Assembly: GCF_024436435.1 (NCBI RefSeq)
Contig: NZ_JAFMZP010000001.1
Span: forward strand, 806,001-870,000
Direction: 5' to 3'
Source: Desertivirga xinjiangensis
GTDB taxonomy: Bacteria; Bacteroidota; Bacteroidia; Sphingobacteriales; Sphingobacteriaceae
Length of the DNA stretch: 64,000 nucleotides
Below the pieces are notes generated by a model. It saw nothing but the letters and a program-made list of their open reading frames with translations, was not told the origin of the DNA and ran no database searches. Position 1 is the stretch's first letter. Each line of letters opens with the position of its first letter. The translations under genes were made by a program, and so were the position numbers. Positions 773 to 8,676 of the stretch are shown here, piece by piece.

Positions 773-792
773 TGATTTTTCTCATCTTTACA

Positions 793-1000
793 GTGCGTCA
801 CATGCTGGATGAGAATCCAGTCTATTTTTTTATTAATGATATACCCAGGCAAGCAGGTGTAAGTCCTCGCACTCTTCCGGACATCCGGCGTGTGACGCGG
901 TGACCTGGGTTTTTATTTTGTTTTTCAATGCGTCACACGAAAAATGAATCAGCAGGGGCACCAGGTGCTTCCTGCTGCCGGCCTGTTTCCCCATGCAGGC
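793..1000 (+). ncRNA. Structured RNA element upstream of the 143-codon gene, copy 1
   Basis: This is a predicted structured leader, or a separate RNA, supported by comparison with the second copy at 6871. The predicted stems, in order, are as follows. Bases 795-804 can pair with 889-898. A hairpin at 805-820 has a GAGA loop of GNRA type. Bases 843-849 pair with 904-910, which makes a pseudoknot with the first stem. A hairpin at 855-867 has loop TGTAAGT, and another lies at 877-888. A T-rich stretch follows at 910-926. Bases 930-939 repeat 795-804 and match 889-898 perfectly over ten pairs. Two more hairpins close at 950-977 and 981-1000. Stem changes between copies are compensatory. The upstream CATCTTTAC could be a weak -7 box. 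Strand is taken from the downstream gene; transcription is not proven. Confidence 0.7.
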
Positions 1001-1055
1001 TCAATGAACCCATGGATCTATTTGTCAGCCTTCAGGAAGGAAAGGAGCACCGGCA

Positions 1056-1487
1056 ATGAAAAAGCACAAAAATCGCTTCAAGCAGTATGAGGAAATCAGT
1101 GACGAGTTCTCTTCTGAGTGGAGGAAGCTGGATCTCCTGGTTCCTTCTAACCTTAAAATGCTTTGTCGTCTGTTGGATCTGAAGCTCGAAACGCTGCTTA
1201 AAGACTTTATGTGGCGGCTTAGCTATATGGTAGCAAGCGGTACGGATGAACAGTGCCAGGCAGCCAGGGATTATTTTCTTTCCTGCGGCTATGGGAAGAA
1301 TTTCTATTCGGAAAAACAGCTGCAGCAGATCTTCCGCGAACTGGATGCTAAAAAGCAATTCTGGCCGGATGTGGATGATGAGGTGATCACTCCTGTGCAG
1401 GAGGAATTGCATTACCTCTGGAGCCACATGCATATGGAGTATTGGCTTGAGAAGTGGAAGGGGAGGAAGGGGAAGTTTGAGTTGTAA
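1056..1487 (+). CDS. Unknown 143-residue protein following the structured RNA, copy 1
   Basis: I do not recognise this family. The protein is rich in charged and aromatic residues and looks mostly helical, with no signal peptide or membrane segment. It begins MKKHKNRFKQYEE and has conserved patches around SEWRKLDLLVPSNLKML, LKDFMWRLSYMVASGTDEQC, CGYGK and the C-terminal HYLWSHMHMEYW. The start is supported by AAAGGAG 14 bases upstream, in sequence shared by both copies. A second copy at 7137 differs by scattered substitutions that mostly keep the frame, so the protein has been under selection. It always sits behind the structured element and convergent to an Rpn-family nuclease, suggesting a joint role, possibly RNA binding. 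That role is inference. Confidence 0.75.
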   Translation: MKKHKNRFKQYEEISDEFSSEWRKLDLLVPSNLKMLCRLLDLKLETLLKDFMWRLSYMVASGTDEQCQAARDYFLSCGYGKNFYSEKQLQQIFRELDAKKQFWPDVDDEVITPVQEELHYLWSHMHMEYWLEKWKGRKGKFEL

Positions 1488-2960: not shown

Positions 2961-3802
2961 TTATAGGCCTTCTATTTCTTCCTTGGAGAGGCCGGTGGCT
3001 TTTGCAATATTTTCAACAGAGACGCCTATCTTCTTAAACTGACGGGCTATATTACGCTTCTCTTCATGCAATTTGGCCTCCGCTTTAGCACGCTCTTCAC
3101 GCATTTTGGCTTCCGCTTTAGCACGCTCTTTTCTGCACCTTTCTTGTAAAGGAAATCCTCTTCTTCCTTAAAAAATAGACTTACTGATTGCATAACCTTT
3201 TCGAATTGTGGTTGTATACTGCTACGTAACTTTACAAAGATACGTAATTGGTTGAAATGTCGGCTCTCTGTCAAGTCACCTTTGCTATGTTCCTGTATTC
3301 CCGTTACTGCCTCTTTTACAATGGAGTAAGGGTCTTTGTTTTTGAGATCGGCCAACAATGCCAGCATCTTCACTTCCGGATTGTCTGAGTTCAGAAACAA
3401 CCGGTAGTTCATCTCCGAGATCATAAAAAGCGGGTAACTGTACTGAAGACGCTCGTCATTGATGCTGGTAGCCATGGGAGGTAGTTCTTCGCCAAGAAAG
3501 ATCACATACTGCTTCACCGGGAGCTTGTACCGCCGCATGAGCATGGCTCTATATTCAAGCATCCAGTAAATCATCTCATTGTCGTTTATTAACTGGAATT
3601 CGATGTGAAGCACAAAGGTTTCACCGCTGCTAGTGGTGATTTTCTTAAGACCATCAGGTTTTCGCTCTTTGGTGTGCTGAATATCGTCGGGAAGCTCTTC
3701 ACTGGAATCTACATCGATACCCAACACCTCCTGGATAATAATGGGAAGTGTTACTTCGAGGTTCTCCCTAATGATCTTATCAATGTAGTTTCTACAGCTC
3801 AA
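2961..3802 (-). pseudogene. Rpn-family nuclease, frameshifted and with replaced N-terminus
   Basis: This copy is very similar to the intact gene at 1842. Near 3131 a run of five T has become four, so the frame shifts after YKKGAEK and ends in an unrelated basic tail at 3047. The usual tail, ending SKEEIEGL, is still readable in the other frame down to a stop at 2961. The first 17 residues of the family N-terminus are missing and replaced by MSCRNYID. Similarity to the other copies stops near 3781, where the palindrome of module B begins. The catalytic residues remain, so a shortened nuclease could still be made, but loss of function is more likely. Confidence 0.85.
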
Positions 3803-3805
3803 TTT

Positions 3806-3834
3806 CTTTCACCTTTCAATAGTGATAGACCATT
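3806..3834 (+). promoter_or_regulatory. Palindromic operator candidate of the peptide module, copy 1
   Basis: An imperfect inverted repeat, CTTTCAC, nine bases, GTGATAG, is followed by ACCATT. The block is shared with 4322 and 6318. The distance from the end of the block (3834) to the -7-like box TAATTTTA (3870) is 35-36 bases, the same as in the other two copies. The box here has lost the final G of TAnnTTTG, in keeping with decay of the gene behind it. Confidence 0.6.
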
Positions 3835-3950
3835 CACCGCATATTTTGAGATACCTGGAACTGTTCAGTTAATTTTACCAGCAAGGGAAGGGTAAAGACC
3901 TGGTTGAGAACCCTGAATTAAAATTAAACCTCAATTGAAATCATTTTGAA

Positions 3951-4168
3951 ATGAAAAAACCATCGTTTCCATTTCCTGCCCCACTGTATTTATTGCCCTA
4001 TGCCTGGCTTCTGAAAAACTTAATGGCCCTGCTTCTATCCTTTATACACTCGCTTTTGTAATCTTCGTTGGAAGCTGTATTTACCTGAGAAATAAATTGA
4101 AAACAGTTTCTGGAAATAGCCTGGAAGTGTCAGGCTACGGGCGACGCTATAAAATGCTCTTAGCCTAA
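3951..4168 (+). pseudogene. Small hydrophobic peptide gene, copy 1, frameshifted
   Basis: The sequence aligns with the 56-codon gene at 4470, but one base is missing within the first nine codons. From ATG the frame leaves the conserved reading almost at once. The conserved frame can be followed as ISCPTVFIALCLASEKLNG... and IYLRNKL, with a C-terminus that differs from the other copies and ends at 4168. There is no start codon in that frame after the preceding TGA. It is therefore a dead paralogue. Confidence 0.65.
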
Positions 4169-4270: not shown

Positions 4271-4350
4271 CTATCACTATTCAATTTTGAAACCTCGAAA
4301 ATAATGTCCTCATGCCAATTTCTGCCACTTTTCGATAGTGATAGACCATT
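4271..4350 (+). promoter_or_regulatory. Operator candidate of the peptide module, copy 2, with extra inverted site
   Basis: The main site is CTGCCAC (4322-4328), nine bases, GTGATAG (4338-4344), then ACCATT. About 40 bases upstream, 4271-4284 is the reverse complement of TTGAATAGTGATAG, that is, a second site in the opposite direction. Paired sites are common for dimeric activators. The nearby AraC regulator is the obvious candidate to bind, but this is inference from position. Confidence 0.55.
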
Positions 4351-4386
4351 TCATCCCAGATTTTTAAATGCATTAATGTGTTGGGA

Positions 4387-4394
4387 TAATTTTG
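4387..4394 (+). promoter_or_regulatory. -7 promoter box before the 56-codon gene
   Basis: TAATTTTG matches the Bacteroidetes -7 consensus TAnnTTTG exactly and begins 36 bases after the operator block. A clear -33 TTTG is not visible, which fits an activator-dependent promoter. The predicted leader to the ATG is about 70 bases. Confidence 0.55.
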
Positions 4395-4469
4395 CACAAC
4401 AAGGGGAGGTAATTTACCATATTGAGAATTCCTTTAAAAAAAAATTAAACTTAACTAACATCATTTGAC

Positions 4470-4640
4470 ATGACAAATTTTATTGTTTTCATTTCCTGTC
4501 CAATTGCATTTATTTCACTGTGCCTGGCGGCCGAAGAACATCAGGACCATGCTTCCATTCTTTACGCAGTCGCATTCGCAACTTTTATAGGATGTGGTAT
4601 TTACCTGAGAAATAAATTAGATGAAAATTTCTGGAATTAA
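4470..4640 (+). CDS. Small hydrophobic membrane peptide (56 residues), copy 2
   Basis: The ATG opens a 56-codon frame ending in TAA. The product has a hydrophobic N-terminal segment (about residues 4-20), a short acidic/His-rich link (EEHQDHAS) and a second hydrophobic segment (about 29-44), followed by LRNKLDENFWN. It looks like a small inner-membrane protein with two membrane helices, or one with a signal sequence. Two paralogues (3951, broken; 6494, intact) keep the same start, N-terminal pattern and FWN end, which supports translation. It converges on the AraC regulator at 4836 and has a strong promoter and palindrome upstream. The function is unknown; I match it to no family. Confidence 0.65.
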   Translation: MTNFIVFISCPIAFISLCLAAEEHQDHASILYAVAFATFIGCGIYLRNKLDENFWN

Positions 4641-6047: not shown

Positions 6048-6317
6048 GAAATTATCTTACAAGGATATGGTTACTGATCTTTGTGATCGAAAACTCTATC
6101 TTAAATTCGATTTTTTGAATCCTCATCAATAATTACCCCTTTTGAGAAGTAATGCTCTGCAAAGTCGCCATTTTTTGAGTACTAAACTAGTTATTGGGTA
6201 ACAATTTTGTAATTGCGAGTAAGTAAAATTACTCCCCGCCTGAGGCTCAGGTGTATTGCACTTTCTGGAAAGCTTTCGGCGTAGAAGACAAGAAATAGCA
6301 TTCCGTGCCAATTTTTT

Positions 6318-6346
6318 CTATCACGTTTCGATAGTGATAGACCATT
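6318..6346 (+). promoter_or_regulatory. Operator candidate of the peptide module, copy 3 (best palindrome)
   Basis: CTATCAC (6318-6324), nine bases, GTGATAG (6334-6340), then ACCATT. The arms are perfectly complementary here, unlike in copies 1 and 2. The end of the block is 36 bases from the -7 box at 6382, the same spacing as the other copies. The spacing suits an activator bound just upstream of the polymerase. Confidence 0.6.
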
Positions 6347-6381
6347 GCCTGACGTATTTAAGAATGGATGAAGATTTGGGA

Positions 6382-6389
6382 TACTTTTG
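6382..6389 (+). promoter_or_regulatory. -7 promoter box before the 47-codon gene
   Basis: TACTTTTG fits TAnnTTTG exactly. It lies 105 bases before the ATG at 6494 and keeps the operator spacing seen at 4387. Confidence 0.55.
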
Positions 6390-6493
6390 CCACCCAGGAG
6401 GAGGTAATAGACCTAATCGACTTAATTGATTTAATTGACCAGGCGAGAGATCACTCCAAACCAAATTTAAACGCAAATTAACATCATTTTGAC

Positions 6494-6637
6494 ATGAGGA
6501 ATTTTATCGTTTTCATTTTCTGCCCCATTGTGTTCATAGCCCTATGCCTAGCTGCTGAAAAACATAACAGCCCTATTTCTATCATTGGAGGTGGTATTTA
6601 TTTTAGAAAACATTTGAATAACAACTTCTGGAATTAA
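6494..6637 (+). CDS. Small hydrophobic membrane peptide (47 residues), copy 3
   Basis: This is a paralogue of the gene at 4470. It keeps MRNFIVFIFCPIVFIALCLA at the N-terminus, the GGGIYFRK region and the NNNFWN end. A nine-codon in-frame deletion removes most of the second hydrophobic segment. Keeping the frame despite the deletion argues that the product is still used. It has its own promoter and palindrome. Function is unknown. Confidence 0.6.
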   Translation: MRNFIVFIFCPIVFIALCLAAEKHNSPISIIGGGIYFRKHLNNNFWN

Positions 6638-6780: not shown

Positions 6781-6870
6781 TTCTCATCAATCTTTAGAAG
6801 TGTAGCTCTATAATTTGTCATTTTTCAGGTATTAACCTGGTGAATTCGTGTGATTTTTCCCATCTTTACG

Positions 6871-7082
6871 GTGCGTCAACGGTTGGAGCAATCCAATCAA
6901 ATTTTCTTATTGATAATAAAGCTCAGGCAATCCGGTGTAAGTCCGGCCTCTATTCGGTTCTCCGACTGTTGACGCGGTGACCTGAGCATATATTTTATTT
7001 TTCTAAAAATGCGTCAACAGAAAAATGAATCAGCAGTGGCACAAGGTGTTCCCTGCTGCCAGCCTGTTCCGCAATGCAGGCT
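6871..7082 (+). ncRNA. Structured RNA element upstream of the 143-codon gene, copy 2
   Basis: The layout is the same as at 793. Bases 6873-6882 can pair with 6966-6975 (one G-U). A hairpin at 6883-6896 has a GCAA (GNRA) loop. Bases 6921-6927 pair with 6981-6987 (GCTCAGG with CCTGAGC), crossing the first stem. The next hairpin is CCGG, loop TGTAAGT, CCGG at 6932-6946. Another is TCGG, TTCT, CCGA at 6954-6965. The downstream copy 7011-7020 matches 6966-6975 over ten perfect pairs. Closing hairpins are 7031-7058 and 7061-7082. Many stem positions differ from copy 1 but remain paired, which is strong evidence for RNA structure. The upstream TGATTTTTCCCATCTTTAC is shared with copy 1 and may hold the promoter. 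Confidence 0.7.
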
Positions 7083-7136
7083 CGAAGAATCTCTTAGTCT
7101 ATTTGTTCGGCTTCAAACTGGAAAGGAGCACCGGCA

Positions 7137-7568
7137 ATGAAAAAGCACAAAAATCGCTTTAAGCAGTATGAGGAAATTAGCGATGAGTTCTCCTCTGAAT
7201 GGAGGAAGCTGGATCTTTTGGTTCCGTCTAATCTGAAAATGCTGGACAGTCTGCTCGACCTAAAGCTCGAAACGCTGCTCAAAGACTTTATGTGGCGGCT
7301 TAGCTATATGGTGGCAAGCGGTACCGATGAACAGTGCGAAGCTGCCAGGGATTACTTTCTCGCCTGCGGCTATGGTAAGGATCTATACTCTGAAGCGCAG
7401 CTGCTGCAGATCTTCCGCGAACTGGATGCTAAGAAGCAATTCTGGCCGGATGTAGATGATGAGGTGATCACTCCTGTGCAGGAGGAATTGCATTACCTAT
7501 GGAGCCACATGCATATGGAGTATTGGTTTGCGAAATGGAAGGGGAGGAGGGGACGTTCTAAGTTTTAA
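7137..7568 (+). CDS. Unknown 143-residue protein following the structured RNA, copy 2
   Basis: This is a close paralogue of the protein at 1056, the same length and collinear throughout. Differences are single substitutions (for example CRLLDLK to DSLLDLK, KNFYSEKQL to KDLYSEAQL). The AAAGGAGCACCGGCA leader before ATG is identical. The protein is soluble, charged and predicted helical, with no recognised domain. It is followed by the conserved hairpin at 7624 and a convergent nuclease pseudogene. Because its partner nuclease is broken here, this copy could act with the intact nuclease at 1842, or the pair may be independent. Confidence 0.75.
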   Translation: MKKHKNRFKQYEEISDEFSSEWRKLDLLVPSNLKMLDSLLDLKLETLLKDFMWRLSYMVASGTDEQCEAARDYFLACGYGKDLYSEAQLLQIFRELDAKKQFWPDVDDEVITPVQEELHYLWSHMHMEYWFAKWKGRRGRSKF

Positions 7569-7819: not shown

Positions 7820-8676
7820 TTATAGGCCTTCTATTTCTTCCGGGGACAGGCCGGTCGCTTTTGCAATATCTTCAACAGAGACGCCTATCTTCTTAAACTG
7901 ACGGGCTATATTACGCTTTTCTTCCGCTGCTTTAGCGCGCTCTTCACGCATTCTAGCTTCTGCTTTAGCACGCTCTTTTTCTGCACCTTTTTTGTAGAGG
8001 AAATCCTCTTCTTCCTTAAAAAATAGACTTACTGATTGCATAACCTTTTCAAATTGTGGTTGTATCTGCTGCGTAACTTTACAAAGATACGTAATTGGTT
8101 GAAATATCTACTCCCGGTCAAATCGCCTTTGGTATGTTGTTGTATTCCTGTTACTACCTCTTTTACAATAGAATAAGGGTCTTTGTTTGTGAGGTCAGCC
8201 AGTAAGGCGAGCATCTTCACTTCCGGATTGTCTGAGTTCAGAAACAGCCGGTAGTTCATCTCCGAGATCATCAAAAGCGGGTAACTATATTGAAGAAGAT
8301 CGTCATTGATGTGAGTAACCATTGGCGGTAGTTGTTCGCCAAGAAAGATCACATACTGCTTCACCGGGAGCTTGTACAGCCGCATCAGCATGGCTCTATA
8401 TTCAAGCATCCGGTAAATCATCTCATTGTCGTTTATTAACTGGAATTCGATGTGAAGCACAAAGGTTTCACCGCTGCTAGTGGTGATTTTCTTAAGACCA
8501 TCAGGTCTTCTTTCTTTGGTGTGCTGAATATCGTCGGGGAGCTCTTCAATAGAGGATACTTCAATACCTAACACCTCCTTGATAATAATTGGAAGTGTTA
8601 CTTCGAGGTTCTCCCTAATGATCTTATCATATTGACCTGATTGCCGTCCCGGCTTTTTACGATCACTATCAGACAT
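7820..8676 (-). pseudogene. Rpn-family nuclease, frameshifted copy
   Basis: The first 205 or so residues follow the intact nuclease (MSDSDRKKPGRQSGQYDKII, D59 in RPDG, E/Q in HIEFQ). A one-base deletion near 8068 then shifts the frame and gives a premature stop at 8029. The rest of the protein (MQSVSLFFKEEEDFLYKKGAEK... to PEEIEGL) continues in another frame to 7820. The C-terminal coil is longer than in the intact copy. The nuclease core is complete, so a truncated enzyme is conceivable. Confidence 0.87.

Follow-up and report, generated by a model that had tools for sequence, protein, structure and literature searches.

The window considered here, that is, the whole stretch of 64,000 nucleotides of Desertivirga xinjiangensis DNA that was analysed, carries two copies of an element in which a predicted promoter and a structured RNA with three related 10-base segments (a1, a2 and a3) precede two overlapping ORFs. 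The features of both copies, all on the forward strand (+), are as follows.

783-790 (+): copy 1, promoter -7 element, CATCTTTA, a variant of TAnnTTTG, at the position that the family's box takes relative to a1
795-804 (+): copy 1, a1, upstream target and predicted RNA 5' end
805-820 (+): copy 1, P2 hairpin with a GNRA-type loop, whose 5' strand can alternatively lengthen the a1:a2 pairing
844-851 (+): copy 1, 5' strand of the outer stem P3, together with C and R from the inner pairs
855-867 (+): copy 1, P4 hairpin with the loop UGUAAGU, which we take to be T-loop-like
877-888 (+): copy 1, P5 hairpin
889-898 (+): copy 1, a2, antisense segment
901-909 (+): copy 1, 3' strand of the outer stem P3 (YG, bulged A, CCTGGG), followed by a T-rich stretch
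930-939 (+): copy 1, a3, downstream target overlapping the start codon (ATG, 928-930)
928-1059 (+): copy 1, 43-aa ORF, beginning in a3, with a TGA that overlaps the next ORF's ATG
1056-1487 (+): copy 1, 143-aa ORF, putative protein with a weak PHROG match (E 0.002)
6861-6868 (+): copy 2, promoter -7 element
6873-6882 (+): copy 2, a1
6883-6896 (+): copy 2, P2 hairpin with a GCAA loop
6921-6927 (+): copy 2, 5' strand of P3
6932-6946 (+): copy 2, P4 hairpin (CCGG UGUAAGU CCGG)
6954-6965 (+): copy 2, P5 hairpin
6966-6975 (+): copy 2, a2
6981-6987 (+): copy 2, 3' strand of P3
7011-7020 (+): copy 2, a3, overlapping the start codon (ATG, 7009-7011)
7009-7140 (+): copy 2, 43-aa ORF, beginning in a3, whose stop overlaps the next ATG
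7137-7568 (+): copy 2, 143-aa ORF

The 143-aa protein matched no Pfam or NCBIfam family, its PHROG match being a single, weak one, and PADLOC assigned no defence family to it or to three of the ORFs that begin at a3 (a3-ORFs). A gene of the Rpn nuclease family occurs three times in the window, at 1842-2678, 3047-3802 and 7820-8676 (- strand), once intact, once shortened and once broken, each time downstream of a complete or partial unit of RNA and 143-aa ORF. A fragment of the 143-aa ORF that precedes the second of these genes (2783-2870) represents a third, decayed unit devoid of the RNA. The window also holds a repeat of about 300 bases in three places (3803-4098, 4319-4640 and 6315-6637), with a short ORF that looked membrane-like by eye, and dense short direct repeats around CTTCGGGAA at 180-400.

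The sequence-only reading of this DNA had claimed that a 10-base segment is present at three places in each copy, and all six segments were confirmed: a1 at 795-804, a2 at 889-898 (as the reverse complement) and a3 at 930-939 in copy 1, with starts at 6873, 6966 and 7011, respectively, in copy 2. In both copies a2 pairs with a3 through ten Watson-Crick pairs and with a1 through nine plus one wobble (position 9), again as had been described. The additional claim that the first five bases are fixed and the last five differ was inaccurate: positions 1-6 and 10 are identical and the differences are confined to 7-9 (3/10), exactly the positions at which a2 of one copy mismatches a1 and a3 of the other. 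With the difference limited to three of ten positions, the window copies alone are thin evidence, and homologues were therefore gathered.

A third element, with another segment sequence (hereafter code) in the same layout, was reached through the downstream ORF in a genome of another genus (L002 in G012). The two window copies and L002 provided a covariance model (R1) comprising helices P2-P5 and excluding the a1/a2/a3 pairings, which gave matches in 34 of 399 genomes searched within the family. A second model (R2), from which the a pairings were again excluded, was built from 49 sequences and had matches in 13 of 395 genomes in a class sample, 4 of 296 in a phylum sample and 22 of 145 in the genus of G137; the samples searched with R1 and R2 overlap, and those of the family, class and phylum contain the window's own genome. 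A pattern search with the core matched 8 IMG/VR contigs and 51 genome contigs, of which R2 confirmed 8 of 8 and 36 of 51. Judging by record names, the 36 confirmed contigs are presumably Bacteroidota and the 15 unmatched ones are not. The confirmed genera include Pedobacter, Sphingobacterium, Mucilaginibacter, Desertivirga, Fulvivirga, Muricauda and relatives, Dyadobacter, Aquimarina, Reichenbachiella, Roseivirga, Chryseobacterium, Epilithonimonas and others, so that the search with covariance models built from the element copies, which had been proposed together with the initial claims, has revealed homologues in many Bacteroidota. The 118 matches correspond to 97 distinct ones, 89 of which were usable for pairing counts; five were dropped for lack of an anchor (L069, L071, L077, L084 and L092) and three for lack of an ATG, namely L042 (a decayed copy) plus the wrongly anchored L068 and L079. 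Another 19 R2 matches were read by eye and kept outside the statistics.

From 5' to 3', the element presents a TAnnTTTG-like box, a1, P2 with its GNRA-type loop and an A/T-rich linker, followed by P3, P4 with the T-loop-like loop, P5, a2, the closing strand of P3, a T-rich stretch, a3 and the ORF. In P3, CCCAGGCR pairs with YG-A-CCUGGG, the R-Y pair being G-C in 25 sequences, A-T in 21, A-C in 2 and T-C in 1 (n=49, in an alignment made without that pair). Across 65 aligned sequences, 94.8% of pair cells were standard pairs and 20 of the 21 helix pairs showed double-sided changes, against a shuffle mean of 14.9, in an alignment that was fitted to the covariance model and is hence biased toward pairing. 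A T-rich stretch (at least 6 T in 12) follows P3 in 76 of 89 loci. A SymE-linked subtype of the RNA has a different inner motif in P3 (GGCAGAGAGCAGG ... CAGCACYGY; L068, L069, L071, L077, L078, L079 and L091); inspection by eye showed SymE itself in two of these loci only, L077 and L079.

Counted from the first base of a1, the TAnnTTTG-like box spans -12 to -5 (96 rows), with the start [TC]AnnTTT in 73 of the 97 distinct matches. In Flavobacterium psychrophilum the sigma-A box is placed at -12 to -5 from the start site (PMC9723704, excerpt); a1, found at this same distance, is therefore probably the RNA 5' end, as predicted from the geometry of Bacteroidetes sigma-A promoters. With regard to folding, in many loci a1 and P2 can together form a helix of 15-18 bases with P5 and a2. 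When the same ten bases were compared, the a2:a3 duplex exceeded a1:a2 in strength in 21 of 31 distinct loci, matched it in 10 and fell below it in none, and the extended a1-P2:P5-a2 helix, of a length unequal to that of a2:a3, was stronger than the latter in 31 of 31 loci computed. A lone full-length transcript could therefore fold with a3 free. The MFE folds of both window copies show the a1:a2 state, a type of prediction that cannot yield pseudoknots, for example P3 together with a1:a2.

For the analysis of pairing, a1, a2 and a3 were taken from fixed landmarks, not by pairing, with one locus per distinct a2 (53). At positions 3-10, a1 and a2 were paired in 378 of 424 cells, against a mean of 219 in 5000 permutations (sd 9.5, maximum 260), and a2 and a3 in 368 of 424, against a mean of 215 (sd 9.4, maximum 254). 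Taken across the family, the three-fold segment is far beyond chance. The proposed test of three-way covariation, once run, thus found a2 tracking both a1 and a3 far above the permutation controls, across many genera and phages, which supports two suggestions of the sequence-only reading, namely selection on two exclusive pairings and a guide-like segment. All ten bases are paired in both a1:a2 and a2:a3 in 55 of 89 loci; at least one of the two pairings is complete in 75 and neither in 14, the failures corresponding to decayed copies, one wrong anchor (L091) and wrong first ATGs (L051 and L061). The 55 loci in which both are complete have 37 sites of difference between a1 and a3, and a wobble falls in a1:a2 at 35 of these sites and in a2:a3 at 2; the wobble compatibility of these differences follows from the choice of loci, their one-sidedness does not.

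The position of a3 at start codons is also seen when a3 is defined by the longest run with no ATG required: 75 of the 92 anchored loci yielded a run of at least 8, which begins within an ATG in all but two of them (73; the exceptions being L064 and L142). In L063, L064 and L067, a1:a2 is complete, no a3 is found at the start codon and a2 has a shorter match at a more distant downstream position.

Phages carry the element as well. In four of the first eight IMG/VR loci (L095, L096, L098 and L100) an antirepressor of the Rha or AntA/KilAC families is encoded at most two genes after the small a3-ORF; L096 and L100 do not differ in their RNA core, and a search of the phage collection with the antirepressor region of L100 gave no relative at E 1e-5. 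An antirepressor also follows in L066, and the a3-ORF itself matches antirepressor PHROGs in L176, L177, L076 and L083. Among eight further IMG/VR loci found with R2, the antirepressor appeared in L176 and L177 (L179, L181 and L182 were left out of the scan), and the next genes in L173 and L174 are of the HNH and replication-initiation types. No PHROG match was obtained for the a3-ORF of L180 or the 212-aa a3-ORF of L088.

Riemerella phages gave weak R2 scores (E 0.31-0.44 in three). In 13 of 13 copies from 9 of these phages, a perfect three-way match of 12-13 bases adjoins TATATTTGC, with 5 codes in total, which were sought only at ATGs except in GRAP2, read without that condition. The ATG of a3 is an annotated CDS start in all 12 annotated copies, and 11 of these are followed by an antirepressor or KilAC-domain gene, PJA1 being the sole exception, with no antirepressor adjoining its copy. 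Two different codes each are present in RAP44, CRP34, PT03 and CRP5, in which two copies were read per phage, those of CRP5 having an overall identity of 85%. By BLAST, 19 related records were retrieved (18 Riemerella and one named Shigella, with RAP44 listed two times), and 15 of these records matched at two places. The gene order in phages is that of P1, namely target, antisense RNA, target, small ORF and antirepressor.

Chromosomal loci standing before genes other than antirepressors constitute the majority of the loci found, and the window copies are probably chromosomal derivatives, linked to the phage copies through RNA homology only. Overall, the downstream genes comprise phage antirepressors, phage-type replication genes, SymE, RadC-like genes and small ORFs without assignment. 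When compared with Pfam, 74 a3-ORFs (a set that excludes four of the 143-aa type, from the two window copies, L044 and L073, as well as read-through and very short ORFs) matched SymE in 13 cases, RadC in 6 and Rha in 1, with none for 54. Among 62 following proteins (95 references minus duplicates and some others, plus L096), the only antirepressor-type matches were AntA (3), Rha (3) and KilA-N (1). In L002 and L073 the end of an 80-aa ORF overlaps the next ORF, as does that of the 43-aa ORF in the window. Copies of the element cluster in G089, G137, G189 and G210. For example, in G137 units of SymE and RNA alternate with AbiU, OLD/GajA-like and other defence genes, and at 410-7503 of L040 they do so with AbiU, OLD/GajA-like and PDC-S47-like genes. 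In G089 tandem RNAs, with a KilA-N gene nearby, lie upstream of a VirE-PrimPol gene, and at 4671-5669 of L038 tandem RNAs upstream of such a gene have a3-ORFs that read through in one frame.

The codes of copies residing in one genome were compared among the 75 loci with at least one complete pairing, genomes being grouped by our G handles or by shared accession prefixes. Nine genomes have at least two loci, amounting to 29 loci and 43 within-genome pairs (21 from G089), and a2 is shared by none of these 43 pairs, against 78 of 2732 between-genome pairs. At a backbone identity of 0.8-0.9, the same code is present in 0 of 6 pairs within and 20 of 47 between genomes; at an identity of at least 0.9, the values are 0 of 1 and 11 of 11. 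These figures support, without proving, that co-resident copies would have orthogonal codes, because the within-genome pairs are not independent and the comparison sets paralogues against possible orthologues. When loci were sorted by eye, 3 of 43 codes were found both in mobile-element loci and elsewhere.

In our judgement, the element is quite likely an antisense immunity RNA of the C4/CI type that belongs to Bacteroidota mobile elements, and we infer that the RNA is transcribed and processed, acts in trans, silences its target and confers immunity in the following manner. From the promoter just upstream the RNA would begin at a1, and its central domain, with P3 around P4 and P5, would expose a2 in a short RNA that may be ended or trimmed after P3. 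Pairing of a2 with a3, on its own or another transcript, would cover the start codon of the first ORF and block its translation as well as that of coupled genes; a2 would also pair with a1, in a helix extended by P5 on P2, like C4 with its upstream a1/b1. In phages, the silenced gene would be the antirepressor, alone or after a small ORF, and the RNA would therefore help the prophage to stay silent. It would equally silence an incoming phage carrying the same code, and a joint change of all three segments would give rise to a new immunity group. The putative derivatives in the window stand before a 43-aa ORF coupled to the 143-aa ORF. Since the code is legible in the sequence and alterable by base pairs, the model is directly testable.

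A cis-only translational switch, in which a1:a2 would be the on state and a2:a3 the off state, nothing would act in trans and the P3/P4 core would sense a ligand, a protein or folding kinetics, seems to us rather unlikely. It agrees with the predicted RNA 5' end at a1 and the start codon at a3, with an on helix that in many loci reaches 15-18 bp and excludes P2, P5 and a2:a3, and with the a1:a2 state in the MFE folds of both window copies, pseudoknots lying beyond MFE prediction. However, the downstream genes have no common metabolic theme and belong to no single pathway, and no Rfam riboswitch matched in the window, the 20 homologue loci or the 5 phage loci searched; the RNA switch that the sequence-only reading had offered is not supported in its ligand sense. 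Moreover, such a switch needs no distinct co-resident codes, yet 0 of 43 within-genome pairs share one, and the layout equals that of P1 C4 and P4 CI, for which the literature describes antisense action. Far less probable still is that the RNA primarily controls toxic small proteins, such as SymE, in the way of type I toxin-antitoxin systems, the phage copies being secondary: SymE accounts for 13 of the 74 a3-ORFs and the L040 units stand among AbiU, OLD-like and other defence genes, but the antirepressor operons of phages have the same RNA layout with perfect codes, and 54 of the 74 a3-ORFs have no Pfam family. Finally, DNA-level repeats serving as recombination, transposase or repressor sites, a role that had initially been left open and that would suit a 10-mer in two direct and one inverted copy as well as the clustering in four genomes, are barely credible, since the a1/a3 differences put the wobble in a1:a2 and keep a2:a3 Watson-Crick (35 of 37 sites, versus 2), P3, P4 and P5 covary as helices including G-U pairs, and promoter box and start codon occupy fixed places.

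The preferred antisense-immunity reading can be extended, if only tentatively, by viewing the three-place code as a private address system. Bacteroidota phages would diversify its codes, which gives rise to new immunity groups, and would even maintain two codes within a single phage, and bacteria would repeatedly have co-opted the module for one of two uses. Defence or toxin genes might be kept off unless a matching invader arrives and titrates the RNA, or stand-alone RNAs might silence phages with the same code. The 3 of 43 codes common to mobile and other loci and the SymE units among defence genes are in line with this extension. If antisense immunity is indeed the function, control of the C4/CI kind arose or spread far wider than Proteobacteria, a readable immunity code becomes available for the phages of a major phylum, and the recurrent leader before SymE, RadC-like proteins and small proteins without assignment is accounted for.

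To our knowledge, RNA immunity of the C4/CI kind has been described only in Proteobacteria and the phages that infect them. The taxa listed for the C4 motif are Proteobacteria and phages (PMC2864571, excerpt), and among the matches listed from the open-licence literature, titles and abstract starts describe no such RNA in Bacteroidota. No Rfam family matched the window element or the tested homologues. The C4 model (RF01695), which scored 68.8 bits on P1 and 74.9 bits on the P4 CI region as positive controls, found C4 neither in the window nor in 20 homologue loci (to E 0.5) or 5 phage loci (to E 5), and R2, run to E 10, matched neither P4 nor the first 50 kb of P1. Both models being blind to each other's RNA, the element is filed as C4-like in its working and not as a member of RF01695.

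Other candidates were discarded. The sub-threshold Rfam matches to snoR25, Flavo-1 and L20_leader were set aside as chance or unrelated, a Flavo-1 RNA beneath the gathering score (35.1 of 42 bits) lying at 1002-1069 of L013. A likeness of GGUGnAAGUCC to the T-loop of cobalamin riboswitches was accompanied by no Rfam match, and readings as a retron, group II intron, IS605-like element or bridge RNA were set aside because the promoter, the start-codon position and the gene order seem to suit none of them.

As for RNAs of comparable working, we know of no two-target layout for sar of phage P22. The likeness resides in the antisense control of antirepressor translation, against which sar is directed (PMC12197685, excerpt). 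SymE is among the ORF types behind the Bacteroidota RNA, and SymR is encoded opposite symE (PMC4147584, excerpt). In contrast to SymR, with its opposite-strand location, the Bacteroidota RNA is a same-strand 5' leader. In phage P4, the antisense segment of the CI RNA is named seqB. The RNA is central, as in the present element, with targets on either side, pairing with seqA upstream and seqC downstream (PMC4825925, excerpt); in addition, cI has the alpha gene downstream of it on its own strand, and the RNA in G089 precedes a VirE-PrimPol gene. The two differ in host phylum, sequence and promoter type, and in the location of the Bacteroidota a3 at the start codon.

With C4 of phages P1/P7 (RF01695; targets RF03163), the element shares the order of target, antisense RNA, target, small ORF and antirepressor, and a specificity segment that varies among relatives. 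An outer stem encloses two hairpins and an antisense strand left unpaired on the 3' side, P3-P4-P5-a2-P3' reproducing the C4 consensus of outer stem, hairpin, hairpin, free strand and closing strand, and targets flank the RNA on both sides, assuming a single transcription unit. In the phage copies the downstream target lies at the start of a small ORF preceding the antirepressor, unlike the window copies, where the following gene is not a recognised antirepressor. In the P1 record, C4 lies between its targets a1/b1 (upstream) and a2/b2 (downstream); icd comes next and is overlapped by ant1, an overlap similar to that between the 43-aa and 143-aa ORFs of the window. C4 is processed by RNase P, with P1 and P7 differing by four bases (PMC5320573, excerpt), and C4-based heteroimmunity has been described (PMC12197685, excerpt). 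The Bacteroidota RNA differs in escaping the C4 covariance model, in its shorter outer stem and, in the main type, in the T-loop-like first hairpin. Its code is one continuous stretch of 10-13 bases, its upstream target is the predicted RNA 5' end, and its downstream target is the start codon itself, whereas that of C4 is the Shine-Dalgarno; moreover, many of its chromosomal copies stand before SymE, RadC-like and other ORFs.
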